Source: Lachnospiraceae bacterium (GTDB lineage Bacteria; Bacillota; Clostridia; Lachnospirales; Lachnospiraceae). Taken from it: a DNA stretch of 48,244 nucleotides. The translations under genes were made by a program, and so were the position numbers. The DNA lies in NCBI GenBank assembly GCA_011959805.1, contig BLMC01000016.1, forward strand, positions 1-48,244, read 5' to 3'. The notes beneath the pieces were generated by a model. That model was not told where the DNA came from. It saw nothing but the letters and a program-made list of their open reading frames with translations, and did not search any database. This document shows, in pieces, positions 4,147 to 48,244 of the stretch; position 1 is the stretch's first letter; every line of letters starts with the position of its first letter.

Positions 4147-4174
4147 GAGATTCCAGCAATGGAGTCTCTTTTTT
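4147..4174 (+). terminator. rho-independent terminator (twin of the one at 5726)
   Basis: GAGATTCCA, a GCAA tetraloop and TGGAGTCTC (one G-T pair), followed by T6. Stem and loop are identical to those at 5726-5747. Confidence 0.92.
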
Positions 4175-5725: not shown

Positions 5726-5754
5726 GAGATTCCAGCAATGGAGTCTCTTTTTTT
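5726..5754 (+). terminator. rho-independent terminator (twin of the one at 4147)
   Basis: GAGATTCCA-GCAA-TGGAGTCTC followed by T7. Same stem and loop as at 4147. Confidence 0.92.
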
Positions 5755-43271: not shown

Positions 43272-43751
43272 ATGAATATAACACTTATTACAGTTGGAAA
43301 AATTAAGGAAAAATATTTTCGAGATGCGATTATTGAATATCAGAAAAGGCTTTCAAAATACTGTAAGTTAGAGATTGTGGAGGTGGCAGACGAAAAGACT
43401 CCAGATAAGGCATCAGAGACAGAGGAGACGCAGATTAAACAAAAAGAAGCGACACGCATTCTAAAGGCAATCAATGACAATACTTATTGTATTGCACTGA
43501 CAATTGATGGAAAAAAGCGAGATTCTGTTCATTTGGCAAAGCACATAGAACAATTGGGAATTAGTGGAAAGAGCAGTCTTGCGTTTGTGATTGGTGGCTC
43601 TTTGGGCTTGCATGATAGCGTGATGCAGCGTGCTGAGGAAACACTCAGTTTTTCAGATATGACATTCCCACATCAGTTAATGCGGGTCATTTTAATGGAA
43701 CAGATTTATCGATGTTTTCGGATTATTAATAAAGAGCCATATCATAAGTAA
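43272..43751 (+). CDS. rlmH: 23S rRNA (pseudouridine1915-N3)-methyltransferase RlmH
   Basis: 159 residues, the normal length. SPOUT-fold marks: MNITLITVGKIKEKYF, LTIDGKKRDSVHLAKHIE, SAM-binding FVIGGSLGLHDSVM and the knot with SDMTFPHQLMRVILMEQIYR, ending RIINKEPYHK. It methylates pseudouridine 1915 in helix 69 of 23S rRNA. The last 16 bases (43736-43751), coding for the final residues and the stop, are repeated at 45657. This 3' end is the attachment site used by SCC elements in staphylococci. The gene is intact. Confidence 0.97.
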   Translation: MNITLITVGKIKEKYFRDAIIEYQKRLSKYCKLEIVEVADEKTPDKASETEETQIKQKEATRILKAINDNTYCIALTIDGKKRDSVHLAKHIEQLGISGKSSLAFVIGGSLGLHDSVMQRAEETLSFSDMTFPHQLMRVILMEQIYRCFRIINKEPYHK

Positions 43752-43767
43752 AGGTGAAATTTTATAG
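43736..43767 (+). repeat. left attachment repeat and terminal inverted repeat
   Basis: Direct-repeat core GCCATATCATAAGTAA (43736-43751) at the rlmH end, running on into AGGTGAAATTTTATAG. The core and this extension match, in inverted orientation, the right end at 45621-45653. Confidence 0.75.
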
Positions 43768-43968
43768 AAATTCAGGAAATGCATCAAAAGTAAGATTAAC
43801 AGTTAGAAGGAATAGCTTCCTTGTGTCAGTGATTTCATTTTGTTTCTATAATATATATTTCAGTGGCATTCATTGGCTTAAATAACCAAGTTGATAAACA
43901 GGACTGATGGTGGTATAAAGAAAATATATGGCGAGCATTTGGTATTTTTAAAAGGTAGGTCGAAAAGT
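43752..43968. other. non-coding left end of the cassette
   Basis: 217 bases with no supported gene. AAGGAA-TAGC-TTCCTT forms a small hairpin near 43817. TATAAT at 43847-43852 may be the -10 of the methyltransferase promoter, but no good -35 stands 16-18 bases before it. Confidence 0.4.
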
Positions 43969-44763
43969 ATGAAAGTTGATGTTAAAAAAGTAAAAAAACA
44001 CTGGAATAGTGTATCGGATTCCGATTGGTATATGTCATTGAGAACAGATGAAAGAATCTTGAAAATACAAGAAAATCCCGCTTTAGCATTTCATCCTGCG
44101 GTATTTGAACTTATTAAAAAATATATGGGCGAGGTAAGCGGAAAGTATATCCTATTGCCATCTAGCAGGGATAATCATGCAGCTTTTGCTTTTGCGATTA
44201 TGGGTGCTAAAGTAACTTCGGCGGATATCAGTGAAAGACAGTTGGAAAATGCAAAAACAATTTCAGACAGGATAGGTCTGGATATAGAGTTTGTATGTGA
44301 TAATACAATGGAGTTGGAGCATATAAAAGATAATGTCTTTGATTTGGTGTACACTTCAAACGGAACACTCTCTTGGATAGATGATGTGACTGGAATGTAT
44401 AAGAACATTCACAGAGTTTTGAAAAATTCGGGATATTCTTTTATGTATGATGTACATCCGTTTAATAGACCTTTCTCTGGAGAGGCTTGGAGTGAACCTA
44501 AAATCATAAAATCTTATCATGATGTAATGCCGGATATTCATTGGCGTGTACAGGATATCATAAACGCAAACATTATGGCAGGTTTATCTATAAATGAACT
44601 TGCAGAATTACCGGCGGTTGATGCGTCATTTTGGTTTAGACATGATGAACTTATAAGAAAAAGTCAGGATGAGTTGGTAAGCATAAATGATTGGACTAAG
44701 AATCCAATGTCAGCGCTCCCGGCATGGATGGTATTGGTGTCAAAGAAAGTAAGTGTGGAATAA
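43969..44763 (+). CDS. class I SAM-dependent methyltransferase
   Basis: 264 residues from ATG 43969; the frame extends upstream to 43891 but the added residues look non-coding. The SAM fold shows KYILLPSSRDNHAAFAFAIMGAKVTSADISERQLENAKTI, with Asp in the ribose-binding strand, then DNTMELEHIKDNVFDLVYTSN and the post-core strand HRVLKNSGYSFMYDVHPF. The glycine-rich motif I is unusual: LLPSSRDNHAAF in place of the common DxGxGxG. The acceptor is unknown. It is the only intact gene of the rlmH cassette, so it is accessory. Confidence 0.85.
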   Translation: MKVDVKKVKKHWNSVSDSDWYMSLRTDERILKIQENPALAFHPAVFELIKKYMGEVSGKYILLPSSRDNHAAFAFAIMGAKVTSADISERQLENAKTISDRIGLDIEFVCDNTMELEHIKDNVFDLVYTSNGTLSWIDDVTGMYKNIHRVLKNSGYSFMYDVHPFNRPFSGEAWSEPKIIKSYHDVMPDIHWRVQDIINANIMAGLSINELAELPAVDASFWFRHDELIRKSQDELVSINDWTKNPMSALPAWMVLVSKKVSVE

Positions 44764-44791
44764 CAATGCCAAGCGACAGGTTCTCCGCTTA

Positions 44792-44820
44792 TTGTAATTT
44801 GCCGGAAGTCTGTGTATAAT
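44792..44820 (+). promoter_or_regulatory. promoter upstream of the Rpn-family pseudogene
   Basis: TTGTAA at 44792-44797, a 17-base spacer and TATAAT at 44815-44820, 78 bases before the start codon at 44898. Confidence 0.6.
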
Positions 44821-44897
44821 AGAAATAGATAATAGGGATTTTGAAAAATACAGAGTTTTCTGGAAGTGATTAGTTGAAAAGAAAGCAGGTGGATAAA

Positions 44898-45578
44898 ATG
44901 GAAAACATGGAAACAAAGCAGACAAAATGGGAAGAATTAAGCATATCCAATGATTTCCTGTTTGGCAAGGTCATGCAGAATCCAGAACTGTGCAAAGAGT
45001 TATTGTAGAGGATTCTCCCGGATTTGAACATTGAACGCATTGAATATCCAGAATTACAGAAAAGTATCCATGTAGATATGGACGCCCATAGCGTCAGACT
45101 GGATGTGTATGTAAAGGACGACAGAGAGACGGTTTACGACACAGAAATGCAGGTCAGTGATACAAAGGAACTGCCAAAGAGAAGCAGATATTATCAGGGA
45201 ATGATTGACCTGCAGCTTGTGGATGCAGGTCAGCATTATAAAAAGCTGAACAAAAGCTATATCATATTTATCTGTCCCTTTGATTTATTAAAACTGTTGA
45301 ATGTGCTTCTGTCCACGGAGACAGGTTCACAGGATAAGTGCCAGATATTAGAGGAAGATTTTCATATCAGAATGACTCAGACATTGGAAAGTGAGGTGTC
45401 GCTTATGTGCAATTTAAGTAAGGGTGTGGAACAAAAAGGAATTGAAAAGGGAAGACAAGAAGGAATAATAGCTATGGTATCAGCATTAAAGGATTTACAA
45501 ATTGCAGACAGCATTATTTTGAAGAAAATTCAGGAAAAGTTTCATTTGGCGGAAGATACAGCTAAAATGTATTTGTAA
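44898..45578 (+). pseudogene. Rpn-family recombination-promoting nuclease / PD-(D/E)XK transposase-like gene with amber stop
   Basis: The frame starts at ATG 44898 behind AGGTGG and reads KWEELSISNDFLFGKVMQNP, a typical family beginning. Codon 37 (45006-45008) is TAG; then RILPDLNIERIEYPELQKS continues in the same frame to TAA 45578. A single base change from a Gln or Glu codon would explain the stop. The nuclease core remains: VRLDVYVKDDRETVYDTEMQV, in which Asp, Glu and Gln match the PD-(D/E)XK pattern, then KRSRYYQGMIDLQLVDAGQHY and KSYIIFICPFD. About 227 codons in all, shorter than the usual ~300 residues. The family is linked to RecA-independent recombination. Reinitiation could still give a C-terminal fragment with most of the core. 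Confidence 0.85.
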
Positions 45579-45579
45579 G

Positions 45580-45617
45580 TATAACAGGCAGAGCATTTCC
45601 GTGTTCTGCCTGTTATA
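45580..45617. terminator. 13-bp inverted repeat after the Rpn-family pseudogene
   Basis: TATAACAGGCAGA and TCTGCCTGTTATA pair perfectly around a 12-base loop. No T-tract follows, so termination would be atypical. The structure may equally belong to the cassette end. Confidence 0.5.
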
Positions 45618-45620
45618 ATA

Positions 45621-45679
45621 CTATGAGATTTTTCGCCCTTATTTATGATATGGAGTGCCATATCATAAGTAAGGGCAAA
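45621..45679. repeat. right terminal inverted repeat and right attachment repeat
   Basis: 45621-45653 is the inverted copy of the rlmH end; 45657-45672 is the direct copy GCCATATCATAAGTAA. Back to back, they form a 19-base-pair dyad around AGTG: GCCCTTATTTATGATATGG against CCATATCATAAGTAAGGGC, with one G-T. Confidence 0.78.
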
Positions 45680-45765
45680 GCTTTGAGGAAGGACAGGGAG
45701 TGTTAAGTGCTATAATATGTATATGGCGCAGAAATAAATAATGCCAAAGCAATAGGAGAAAAAGT

Positions 45766-45849
45766 ATGAAAACTTTAACAGGAAACGGAAAAGACAGCAT
45801 TTTTCCTATCTATTTGAGCCGCCAAAGGCGGCATGGGGGATTAAAATGA
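45766..45849 (+). CDS. 27-residue leader ORF overlapping the acetyltransferase start
   Basis: MKTLTGNGKDSIFPIYLSRQ plus RRHGGLK. AGGAG stands seven bases before ATG 45766, and an extended -10 (TGCTATAAT, near 45710) lies upstream. The TGA shares bases with the next start (ATGA), which suggests translational coupling. A GC-rich hairpin (GCCGCC-AAA-GGCGGC, ~45818-45832) lies inside the ORF, just before the GGGGG ribosome site of the next gene. A translating ribosome would open it. Confidence 0.5.
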   Translation: MKTLTGNGKDSIFPIYLSRQRRHGGLK

Positions 45850-46286
45850 TTATTCAAAAAATGGAAAAAGACGATATAGCTGTATGTGCAGATATTATGT
45901 GTAGTGTATACAATAATGAAATATGGCAGTGCTGTTGGACAAGAAAAATGGCAATAGAATATCTTACTGATTTTTTTGAAATGAAAAAATTTGTGGGATA
46001 TGTTTTAGTGGATGAAAAAGAAATTATTGCTGGCATATTTGCACACGAAAAAGTATGGTGGAATAATAGTGAAATTTTTGTGGACGAAATGTTTGTCAAA
46101 CCAGAGCGGCAACGTATGGGCTGCGGTTCAATGCTGATAAGACAAATTGAGATATATGTAAGGGAAAAAAGATTTGCAGGAATAACTTTGTCTACTAATA
46201 GATACGCACCTGCGCATATCTTTTACCAAAAAAATAGTTTTGAAGATTGTAGTCATGTTTTGTTTATGGCAAAAGAAATAATTTAA
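45846..46286 (+). CDS. GNAT-family N-acetyltransferase
   Basis: 146 residues. The GNAT fold shows MIIQKMEKDDIAVCADIMCS at the start, GYVLVDEKEIIAGIFAHEKVW, the acetyl-CoA site in VDEMFVKPERQRMGCGSMLI (pattern R-x-x-G-x-G/C), and FAGITLSTNRYAPAHIFYQKNSF at the end. It transfers an acetyl group from acetyl-CoA to an unknown amine. It is the first gene outside the right end of the cassette, so it is probably ancestral next to rlmH or part of an older insertion. Confidence 0.88.
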   Translation: MIIQKMEKDDIAVCADIMCSVYNNEIWQCCWTRKMAIEYLTDFFEMKKFVGYVLVDEKEIIAGIFAHEKVWWNNSEIFVDEMFVKPERQRMGCGSMLIRQIEIYVREKRFAGITLSTNRYAPAHIFYQKNSFEDCSHVLFMAKEII

Positions 46287-46662
46287 AATATTGATATTGC
46301 TGTCATAAATGAAGGAGAAAGAACAGAAATTTACAGGATTTAGAAAAAAATGTAATTTCGTAGGATTCAATGATATTTATTATAGGTGCAAATGAATTTG
46401 TCGGTCAGAGTCAGCAGGTCTTGTTTTGGGAAACAAGGGCCAGAATAAACAGTCAGAAAAGCTTAGATTTTAAGGAAAACTATAGATTGGGGAAAGATAC
46501 TAGGCTGTCGAGAATGTTTCAGGTTATGGGGAGATTCCAGCTAAATAGGCTGTCTGAATCCAGCGCACTTAGGGTTATGGTAAAGAATCTTATCACAAGT
46601 AAGAGCGAGATAAAATCTGCTAGGTCGTGAATGGCAACAAGGATTATAAAAGGGGCATAAGG
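46287..46662. other. 376-base gap before the antiporter; possibly structured leader RNA
   Basis: No supported gene. An 86-codon frame at 46370 has no ribosome site and no family likeness. Structure is visible: a hairpin at about 46421-46440 pairs CTTGTTT with AAACAAG around TGGG. Two diverged direct units begin TAGGCTGTC (near 46502 and 46547), each followed by GAAT and AGG(G)TTATGG. A small stem TCTTA/TAAGA lies near 46590. Such a length before a transporter gene could be a cis-acting RNA, but I cannot match it to a known class. Confidence 0.4.
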
Positions 46663-48024
46663 ATGGAACAGGAAATAAAAAGAATAGAATTTCGTTTTGG
46701 AAGGTTTGGGAAACTCATACCACTTATCGTTGCGGTTGCTATGATTTTGTGGGCGGCGTCCAGCCAGTCTAATGTAAATGGATATGTGCTGGCTTTTTTT
46801 GTGGCGTTGGTGACAGGGATTCTTTTTGCAAAGGATGAAAAGGCGTATGGGGAGGCATTGGTTTATGGTCTAAGCAAGCCTATGTTTGGCGTGATTGTGA
46901 TGGCGGTTATACTTGCGGCCATTTCAGGAAAGTTAATCTCATCAAGTGGGGTTGTACAGACAATTGCAGTGTATGTGGTGGCGGCAGGTTTTACTGGAAA
47001 ACTTTTTGTGACTGCTTCCTTTCTTATAACCTGTTTGTTAGCGTTTGCAACAGGAACTTCAGTGGGAACTTATTTTGTTGTAATTCCAATTTTGTTTCCG
47101 GTGGGTGTGATGGCAGGAGTAGCGCCAGAATTTATGATTGGTGCCATTGTGTCAGGAGCAGCATTCGGTGACAATCTGGGTCCTATTTCGGATACCACCA
47201 TTGCTTCTTCTGCGACACAACATGCAGATTTAGGAACTGTGGTAAAGACTAGGATGCGTTACAGCTTGCCAGCAGCAGTGGGGGCTATGGTTTTATTTCT
47301 GCTATTCTCTAAGACTACTGAGGTAGGTGTGGTAAATGAGAAAGTAACAGGTACTGCAAACCCTGCAAGTCTGGTGATGTTAATCGTGCCAGCAGTAATT
47401 ATTATTTTATGCGTGATGAGAATGCATTTGATTACAGCTTTGTCATGGGGAATTTTAGTAGGGGTTTTCGTCGGATTGATTTTTGGCATATACACAATGG
47501 ACGGACTAATTTCCTTTCCCGGTGGGTTTTCTGTATCAGGGGCAATTATAGAAGCGATTATGGGGACAGCAGGTACAATGGCAATGCTGATTGCAGTGTT
47601 TGCTCTGCTTGGAGTAGTGGAACGCAGTGGTCTATTTGAGGATGTGGGAATGTTTTTGGCCCGTTTTGCAAAAAGTGAACGCAGTACAGAGATTGCCATT
47701 GTGTTTTCGGCTGGCATATTGAGTATGGTCACAGGAGTTATCTCCGTAGCAATTGTGGCACTAGGTGATTTAGTGAATGAGATTGGTGAAAAAGCGGGTA
47801 TCAATCGATATCGCCGCGCAAACCTATTGGATTGTACAGGCTGTGTGTTTTGTTTTCTGTCGCCTTGGACAGTACATTGCGTAATCCCAGCACAACAGTC
47901 TGCCCAGTTTGGAAAGGACTTTGCAGTGGCGCCAGCGTCAATCCCTTTTGTAAATTTTTATTCTCTTTGTATGATGGTGATACTGATAGTGGCGGTGACA
48001 ACTGGATATGGAAGAAAACATTAA
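46663..48024 (+). CDS. NhaC-family Na+/H+ antiporter
   Basis: 453 residues from ATG 46663, with AGGGG about eight bases upstream; an upstream ATG at 46630 lacks that site. About twelve hydrophobic helices. Family marks are LLAFATGTSVGTYFVVIPILFPVG, GAIVSGAAFGDNLGPISDTTIASSATQHAD with conserved acidic residues in the transport core, and VSVAIVALGDLVNEIGEKAG. It exchanges Na+ (or an organic anion pair in relatives such as MleN) for H+ across the membrane. The exact ion is not determined. The last gene of the window. Confidence 0.88.
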   Translation: MEQEIKRIEFRFGRFGKLIPLIVAVAMILWAASSQSNVNGYVLAFFVALVTGILFAKDEKAYGEALVYGLSKPMFGVIVMAVILAAISGKLISSSGVVQTIAVYVVAAGFTGKLFVTASFLITCLLAFATGTSVGTYFVVIPILFPVGVMAGVAPEFMIGAIVSGAAFGDNLGPISDTTIASSATQHADLGTVVKTRMRYSLPAAVGAMVLFLLFSKTTEVGVVNEKVTGTANPASLVMLIVPAVIIILCVMRMHLITALSWGILVGVFVGLIFGIYTMDGLISFPGGFSVSGAIIEAIMGTAGTMAMLIAVFALLGVVERSGLFEDVGMFLARFAKSERSTEIAIVFSAGILSMVTGVISVAIVALGDLVNEIGEKAGINRYRRANLLDCTGCVFCFLSPWTVHCVIPAQQSAQFGKDFAVAPASIPFVNFYSLCMMVILIVAVTTGYGRKH

Positions 48025-48110
48025 TGTTTCCCAAAAATAAAGAAGATATATAGGAAGATCGTAGCATTATCAAGAAGGTGAGTGAAACATAATGTTATTT
48101 GGAGCGAATA

Positions 48111-48182
48111 GTGTGAAATTAAAATTTCACACCTCCTGATTTGTACACCCGCAAAAGCGGGCAGATGGGAGTTAGTGTGAAA
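48111..48182 (+). repeat. GTGTGAAA/TTTCACAC palindromic element, copy 3 (best preserved)
   Basis: GTGTGAAATT and AATTTCACAC (48111-48132) form a dyad with two bases between. CTCCTGATTTGTACA, the hairpin CCCGC-AAAA-GCGGG (48148-48161) and GATGGGAGTTAGTGTGAA follow. TTTCACAC at 48125-48132 can pair instead with GTGTGAAA at 48175-48182, with CTCC/GGAG inside. Confidence 0.75.
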
Positions 48183-48237
48183 CTTAATCGTTCTAAGGCA
48201 GCAAAAGACACTGCCTAAGAACGATTAAGTTTCACAC
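48175..48237. repeat. 27-base inverted repeat with 9-base loop
   Basis: Left arm 48175-48201 and right arm 48211-48237 are complementary except at one position; the loop is CAAAAGACA. The outer eight bases (GTGTGAAA/TTTCACAC) are those of the neighbouring palindromic element. No T-tract follows, so it is not a standard terminator. Confidence 0.85.
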
Positions 48238-48244
48238 AGGAAAA

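Follow-up and report, generated by a model that had tools for sequence, protein, structure and literature searches.

The window analysed in this study is a stretch of 48,244 nucleotides from a Lachnospiraceae bacterium (assembly GCA_011959805.1, contig BLMC01000016.1), which forms contig C16 of a 4.25 Mb genome in 431 contigs that is 86.5% complete. At the 3' end of the host gene rlmH it carries two small tandem cassettes without a recombinase gene of their own, and this array very probably has an origin like that of the staphylococcal cassette chromosome (SCC), through a recombinase of the CcrB/CcrC kind. Part of this confidence is shared with the alternative that both cassettes are remnants of larger elements, which differs just in how the small size arose. 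Judged from their ends and gene content, the window cassettes are best read as recombinase-less, partly decayed passengers of a family of SCC-like elements. The family has a common plan, in which the left end consists of the rlmH core CCATATCAYAAGTAA and a short extension, and the right end of an inverted version (TTTTTCGCACTTAGGTATGTTATGG) and, after it, the core once more. The preliminary description of this DNA had proposed an SCC-like cassette at rlmH, either a passenger or a remnant, and had named sister cassettes and large serine recombinases in relatives as the features to look for; both were found with the same ends, the former in the window's genus as well as in other genera.

The insertion site is the 3' end of rlmH (43272..43751, + strand; Pfam SPOUT_MTase, 203.9 bits), a gene that keeps its reading frame and stop codon and whose best matches come from Lachnospiraceae. 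Its final 16 bases, stop codon included (GCCATATCATAAGTAA, 43736-43751), recur exactly as a direct repeat at 45657-45672, 1.9 kb downstream, as had been reported. The left attachment site (43736..43759, +) comprises these 16 nt and 8 nt past the stop (AGGTGAAA; family form GGGCGAAA), and the second attachment core (45657..45679, +) is at once the right site of cassette 1 and the left end of cassette 2. The right-end inverted arm of cassette 1 (45631..45653, -) takes part in two inverted pairings, one with 43737-43759 (23 nt, 87% complementary) and one in which 45632-45653 faces 45658-45679 (22 nt, 91%, spacing 4 nt). Inverted copies of the rlmH end are thus present as the preliminary description had it, at 22-23 nt and not at the 31-33 bases given there. 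A third, decayed junction (46564..46602, +), composed of the right end of cassette 2 and the core TTATCACAAGTAA, departs from the family right-end pattern at 9 of 39 positions, and the window therefore contains a second, tandem cassette; the cassette at 43736..45672 had been recognised before, its neighbour had not. The right-end pattern matches the window at 45634 (+, 4 mismatches), 46564 (+, 9 mismatches) and, by way of the palindrome, 45677 (-, 7 mismatches).

The window cassettes are inserted at the rlmH 3' end, where the stop codon is restored, and they have direct repeats of the rlmH end combined with terminal inverted repeats; these are two features by which SCC elements are recognised. 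A third such feature, a ccr gene of their own, is absent, since no recombinase open reading frame (ORF) lies inside 43736-46602. The 16-mer was found in none of 200 simulated 3-kb stretches, and the 39-position right-end pattern with up to 9 mismatches in none of 200 simulated 48-kb sequences (first-order Markov model of the window's dinucleotide make-up, both strands). The 16-nt repeat alone is weak evidence, because the window has three further sites with exact repeats of at least 16 nt within 3 kb; the case is made by the location of this repeat at the end of rlmH and by relatives in which the ends are seen again.

Cassette 1 (~1.9 kb, 43752..45656, +) holds a methyltransferase gene and a broken rpn gene, the cargo already assigned to it along with the lack of ccr. 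The former is a class I S-adenosylmethionine-dependent methyltransferase-like ORF of 264 aa (43969..44763, +; Pfam Methyltransf_11, 48.9 bits), which when scanned at 43891-44760 exceeded the Pfam cut-offs of Methyltransf_11, _25, _31, _12 and Ubie_methyltran; it is matched in five of 397 family genomes, its own included, and is 86% identical in G053, a member of another genus (genomes, contigs and loci are numbered here with G, C and L). The Rpn-family (PD-(D/E)XK) gene (44898..45578, +) is interrupted by a TAG codon at 45006-45008, and the relatives that it matches differ between its two halves, with the switch at about 45282-45288. Window positions 44917-45288 share 98.4% nucleotide identity over 372 nt with contig C55 of G319, which belongs to another genus; the rlmH proteins of the two are just 62% identical, and so similar a stretch in spite of this distance points to recent transfer. 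A terminator-like hairpin (45580..45617, unstranded) follows, and similar sequence lies directly before the right end in other cassettes. Cassette 2 (~0.9 kb, 45673..46587, +) contains a GNAT acetyltransferase-like ORF of 146 aa (45846..46286, +; Pfam Acetyltransf_7, 39.6 bits) and the relic of an element gene, namely a SymE-like gene (46396..46553, +) with blastn identities of 71-74% over 153-160 nt to L157, L177, L179 and L180; in the large elements this gene sits after the recombinase. The 1.9-kb stretch of cassette 1 had no match in the plasmid collection. The broken rpn gene and the worn third junction suggest that the array is partly decayed now, and it is probably inactive at present unless a helper enters.

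The ends recur across the family. The rlmH locus set comprised the best 80 of 489 matches in genome contigs (1.27 Mb), and an rlmH match was present in 35 of the 38 genomes of the window's genus. With up to 4 mismatches, the left-end motif was located at the rlmH end in 21 of the 80 loci, one of which (L064) has an additional second site, while L080 has the second site only; since the motif is largely rlmH coding sequence, the information at this position comes from its extension alone. A more stringent test is provided by the right-end pattern. With up to 8 of 39 positions mismatched, it gave seven matches in six of the 80 loci, each on the rlmH strand and downstream of the gene, with none downstream on the opposite strand, none upstream and none in reversed sequence. 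In the 397 family genomes the left-end motif had 37 matches distributed over 23 genomes, 21 of which match at rlmH itself and the other two (G213 and G378) at a cassette right end. Within the genus, the right-end pattern at up to 3 mismatches occurred 15 times in seven of the 38 genomes (control, 0), the window's own genome lying outside these seven at that threshold; four of the matches share a contig with rlmH (two in G001, one in G027 and one on C99 of G029). Inverted arms, non-coding extensions and hairpins are common to several genera. At L159:214 (G319, C37) the left-end motif is preceded by a sequence other than an intact rlmH end; this place may be a secondary site or a chimeric junction.

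Comparison of occupied with nearly empty sites in three genomes of the window's genus (G025, G002 and G031) showed the same flank at different distances from rlmH. In G025 this flank begins ~25 bases behind the rlmH stop; in G002 the array comes first, and 46 bases separate its last core from the flank (84.5% over 407 nt). In G031 the distance from the last recognised core is 0.66 kb (85.9% over 418 nt). The family thus offers a near-empty site in G025 versus G002, and versus G031 with 0.66 kb more. In Lachnospiraceae bacterium A4, the sequence behind the third core after rlmH matches sequence found 57 bases behind rlmH in G021 (92.4% over 840 nt), as if the cassettes had entered next to rlmH. 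In the window, the chromosomal flank directly after the array is an antiporter gene (46663..48024, +) which we take to be of the nhaC type. A gene of this type lies 2.1-2.3 kb behind rlmH in L018 and L014, with unrelated genes in between; the interval between rlmH and nhaC is variable, and the 1.9 kb is not fixed there, an outcome in favour of the preliminary description. The empty site that it also called for exists in the genus in near-empty form, and for the window's own flank none was encountered.

A large serine recombinase is encoded in elements whose two ends lie on the same contig (G319, two in G029, and G213) and in elements with the right end alone on the contig (G194 and G002). Where both ends share a contig, full elements measure 8-10 kb and encode a single large serine recombinase, a large P-loop protein, a SymE-like protein and often rpn, with core-to-core spans of 10.3 kb in G319 and of 9.4 and 8.1 kb in G029. 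On a single contig of G213, rlmH (C1:395184-395660) is followed by a DUF1643 gene and the gene for the large P-loop protein, then by the recombinase (C1:387620-389269), the SymE-like gene, rpn and a right end near C1:386000, so that 9.2 kb separate the rlmH end from the right end of the element; a DUF1643 gene is also present in the Staphylococcus aureus SCC used as a yardstick. A 22-kb contig of G029 bears three junctions and two tandem recombinase genes, and no rlmH. The rlmH contig of G002 stops 2.8 kb behind the left end, and its recombinase contig opens with element genes and has its first right end at 17.3 kb; the flank match between G025 and G002 supports the view that these two contigs would join.

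Based on these comparisons, the element recombinase appears closest to staphylococcal CcrB and CcrC. The recombinases of G194 and G002 scored 353.9 and 371.9 bits on the NCBIfam CcrB model and 332.5 and 341.6 bits on the CcrC model. By comparison, the CcrB model gave 132.7, 50.6 and 112.7 bits for three ordinary recombinases encoded in the window's genome, and the CcrC model gave 271 for S. aureus CcrB. By BLAST, the element recombinases are 33-40% identical to S. aureus CcrB. A tree was built from 21 rows, including G336 and eight recombinases from the window's genome. In it, the five element recombinases form one group (100/99), are joined by G336 (98/99) and may cluster with CcrB and with a Vagococcus and a Paenibacillus plasmid protein (83/86). 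Support is weak (73/91) for the fork beyond which the remaining recombinases of the window's genome lie, and CcrA lies on a long branch. The recombinase of G336 is 45-46% identical, and in the 36 kb fetched around it neither recognised ends nor rlmH were found; it was not used for defining ends. Identity with a known phage integrase was rejected, as phage matches are ~31% identical to the element recombinase among the best 8 of 1202 records. Large serine recombinases of PF07508 can be very numerous in a single genome, with 33 matches in G319 and 25 in G309, some of them in runs of three or more.

The large element protein (L152:804-2264, L157:4596-7106, L177:11087-13597), in which a P-loop was recognised by eye, is a candidate replication protein of an undescribed family, and it could possibly be a distant helicase. 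Its 837-aa and 487-aa forms had no match in NCBIfam, where the S. aureus Cch1 control scored 984.8, and a Cch-type helicase was thus not recognised in these elements. In Pfam the 837-aa form had no match at E <= 10, and the 487-aa form matched AAA_22 at E 0.029. Among solved structures, one large element protein had just weak ABC-ATPase matches, and the second had no match.

Small cassettes with both ends were found at ten other rlmH loci, and cassettes other than those of the window span 0.1-2.1 kb. Core-to-core distances are 96 bp in L016, 707 in L080, 986 in L170 (where the right end fits just a shorter form of the pattern), 1360 in L168, 1424 in L064, 1510 in L088, 1668 in L161, 1813 in L013 and 2107 in L160, with two spans of 1158 and 1366 bp in L213; in L010, cassettes of 101 and 740 bp stand behind one of 5.0 kb. 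Their cargo includes a metallophosphoesterase (L013), a HAD hydrolase (L177), DUF3990 (L064) and, in many cases, rpn, and one small cassette (L162) retains fragments of a recombinase. A gene-less cassette of 141 bp, alignable over its whole length, is present in G002, G319 and G144, which represent three genera. The 5-kb rlmH-proximal cassette of Lachnospiraceae bacterium A4 (L010:10577-15505, also L183) has three putative tyrosine-recombinase genes in a row, recognised by eye, presumably of the Tn554 type; this trio is bounded by SCC-like ends.

The layout of these elements fits the scheme described, in the available text of PMC6222049 and PMC7581432, for CcrAB and CcrC, which recombine a circular element's site with the one at the rlmH end. 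By analogy, the recombinase of a full element would join the site of its circular form to the rlmH end, so that the latter is restored and the site is present once more beyond the element. Further cassettes would enter at rlmH, and arrays would grow. Judging by the ends that they share, small cassettes without the gene could have been moved in trans by a full element present at some time in the same cell. This recombinase would act on these ends, and the window's own copies may once have moved in this way.

Several observations weigh against an SCC-like origin by such a recombinase. The window's genome yielded no recombinase of the CcrB/C kind at E <= 1e-60 among 15 PF07508 matches, at a completeness of 86.5%, and the element recombinase is rare, being present in two of the 38 genus genomes and in at least four of the 397 family genomes, one of which (G336) lacks recognised ends; the family count is a lower bound, as scoring was limited to three candidates per genome and missed G378, if not more, which has a partial copy of 46%. 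The scores obtained fall far under the NCBIfam cut-offs for staphylococcal Ccr (900/900/700). Furthermore, the recombinase of G319 is broken by an internal TGA and the first copy of G029 is fused to the upstream gene, which indicates that several full elements are decayed too. Reversed sequence gave 17 matches to the left-end motif, versus 37 in the forward search of the family genomes, and a locus's own 16-mer is repeated with up to 2 mismatches in just three of the 80 rlmH loci, many of whose contigs stop soon after rlmH. In the stretches fetched from the four other genomes with the methyltransferase, the gene has no such ends, one of these stretches starting at a contig end, and no strict empty site for the window's nhaC flank was found among the loci fetched. 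Finally, 11 of the 15 right-end matches in the genus lie on contigs without rlmH; matches on rlmH-less contigs include G036 C17:76143 and 77205, G014 C14:1377, G021 C59:7436, and G029 C149:259 and C135:1446. The six of these 11 that were inspected are all within 2.1 kb of a contig end, with the rlmH side pointing off it, which fits broken arrays; a position away from rlmH is also possible. An rpn gene adjoins the right ends in G036, G014 and G029 C135.

Among the alternatives, both cassettes could be dead remnants of larger recombinase-bearing elements whose middles were lost by deletion, a view that we consider possible, albeit tentatively, and that is compatible with the passenger reading. 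The broken and two-halved rpn gene, the SymE-like relic at 46396-46553, the worn third junction, the recombinase fragments kept in L162 and the lack of a detected CcrB/C-kind recombinase in the window's genome would all agree with it. However, the right end of cassette 1 is well kept and its direct repeat exact, small cassettes with both ends occur at the ten other loci, and separate deletions hardly explain 141-bp gene-less cassettes that are alike over their full length in three genera. Small size and kept ends point to a passenger, and the broken rpn gene and worn junction to decay. It is quite unlikely that rpn, together with its 3' hairpin and the palindrome, constitutes the mobile unit, with the likeness to rlmH being secondary. 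Many cassettes do contain rpn and Pfam describes the family as nuclease/transposase, but ends of the same type bound cassettes without an rpn match (L013, L016, L064, L080, L088 and L160), the right-end pattern was confined in the 80 loci to one orientation downstream of rlmH, and the end motif has no match on the contigs that hold the two other rpn-like matches of the window's genome. Least probable of all is that the rlmH end recurs through chance or local duplication with no mobile element involved, which the other exact repeats in the window and the immediate tandem repetition of the rlmH end in L087 might recall, yet which the simulations, the arms, extensions and hairpins common across genera, and the occupied and near-empty sites speak against.

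In staphylococci, SCC elements are best known for carrying methicillin resistance; they include members without ccr (pseudo-SCC) and composite SCC. Integron gene cassettes, for their part, are small, line up at a single site with most of them facing the same way, and depend on a tyrosine recombinase. The cassettes of Lachnospiraceae resemble them in the row of small gene cassettes at one site and in the mostly uniform orientation, but the recombinase is a serine recombinase and the site is the end of a host gene. They share with SCC, as described in PMC6222049 and PMC10061031, the same gene end (the 3' end of rlmH/orfX), the TATCATAA core, terminal repeats with an inverted part, and tandem composites. 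Members that lack ccr, known as pseudo-SCC in staphylococci, are a further common feature. They differ from SCC in their host family, in a single CcrB/C-like recombinase far below the staphylococcal cut-offs, in a large element protein without an NCBIfam match, Cch1 included, whose 837-aa form has no Pfam match either, and in cassettes as small as 96-141 bp. The Enterococcus cassette chromosome (ECC) likewise combines the rlmH 3' end, TATCATAA, inverted repeats in attR and ccr genes, and the part of PMC6222049 that was available reports a remnant in one recipient strain. However, ECC has two recombinases (ccrAB) and measures 32 kb in the example given there, whereas full elements here have one and the window none. 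Islands of other Bacillota, which according to PMC10061031 have a large serine recombinase and a helicase, resemble the present elements in the recombinase, in the rlmH site used by most of them and in tandem composites with repeats of the rlmH end; Table 1 of that paper covers Bacilli, Clostridium/Clostridioides (at ssrA) and Turicibacter, and no Lachnospiraceae, and its sections on islands did not yield small gene cassettes. A literature search of partial coverage, with most subscription papers and all preprints outside it, found no description of SCC-like elements in Lachnospiraceae. SCC-like islands at rlmH, some of them tandem, are already known in other Bacillota, and the Lachnospiraceae variant appears to be undescribed.

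Elsewhere in the window, an exact direct repeat of 28 nt (GAGATTCCAGCAATGGAGTCTC...; 4147-4174 and 5726-5753) lies around an alcohol/sorbitol-dehydrogenase-like gene recognised by eye, and both copies are followed by further similar stretches, resembling a duplicated leader region. Long inverted repeats (GTGTGAAACTTAATCGTTCT...) close the window at 48110-48244, perhaps as the edge of another repeat or as a terminator pair.

In a wider and more speculative view, which may hold but for which we claim limited confidence, the rlmH end in Lachnospiraceae would serve as a landing pad much like that of an integron, but operated by a serine recombinase. Rare CcrB/C-bearing elements would capture, stack and trade cassettes of 0.1-2 kb (with one to three genes, or gene-less) in trans across genera, and the stretch behind rlmH would be a shared cassette array. 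Such arrays may explain why many assemblies break soon after rlmH, and the 141-bp cassettes with both ends would be very small substrates for asking what Ccr-type recombinases require. If the SCC-like origin is correct, a system of Lachnospiraceae with its own group of recombinases and with one- or two-gene cassettes would bring a major gut family into the range of the SCC kind and would point to a route for gene exchange among these Clostridia.

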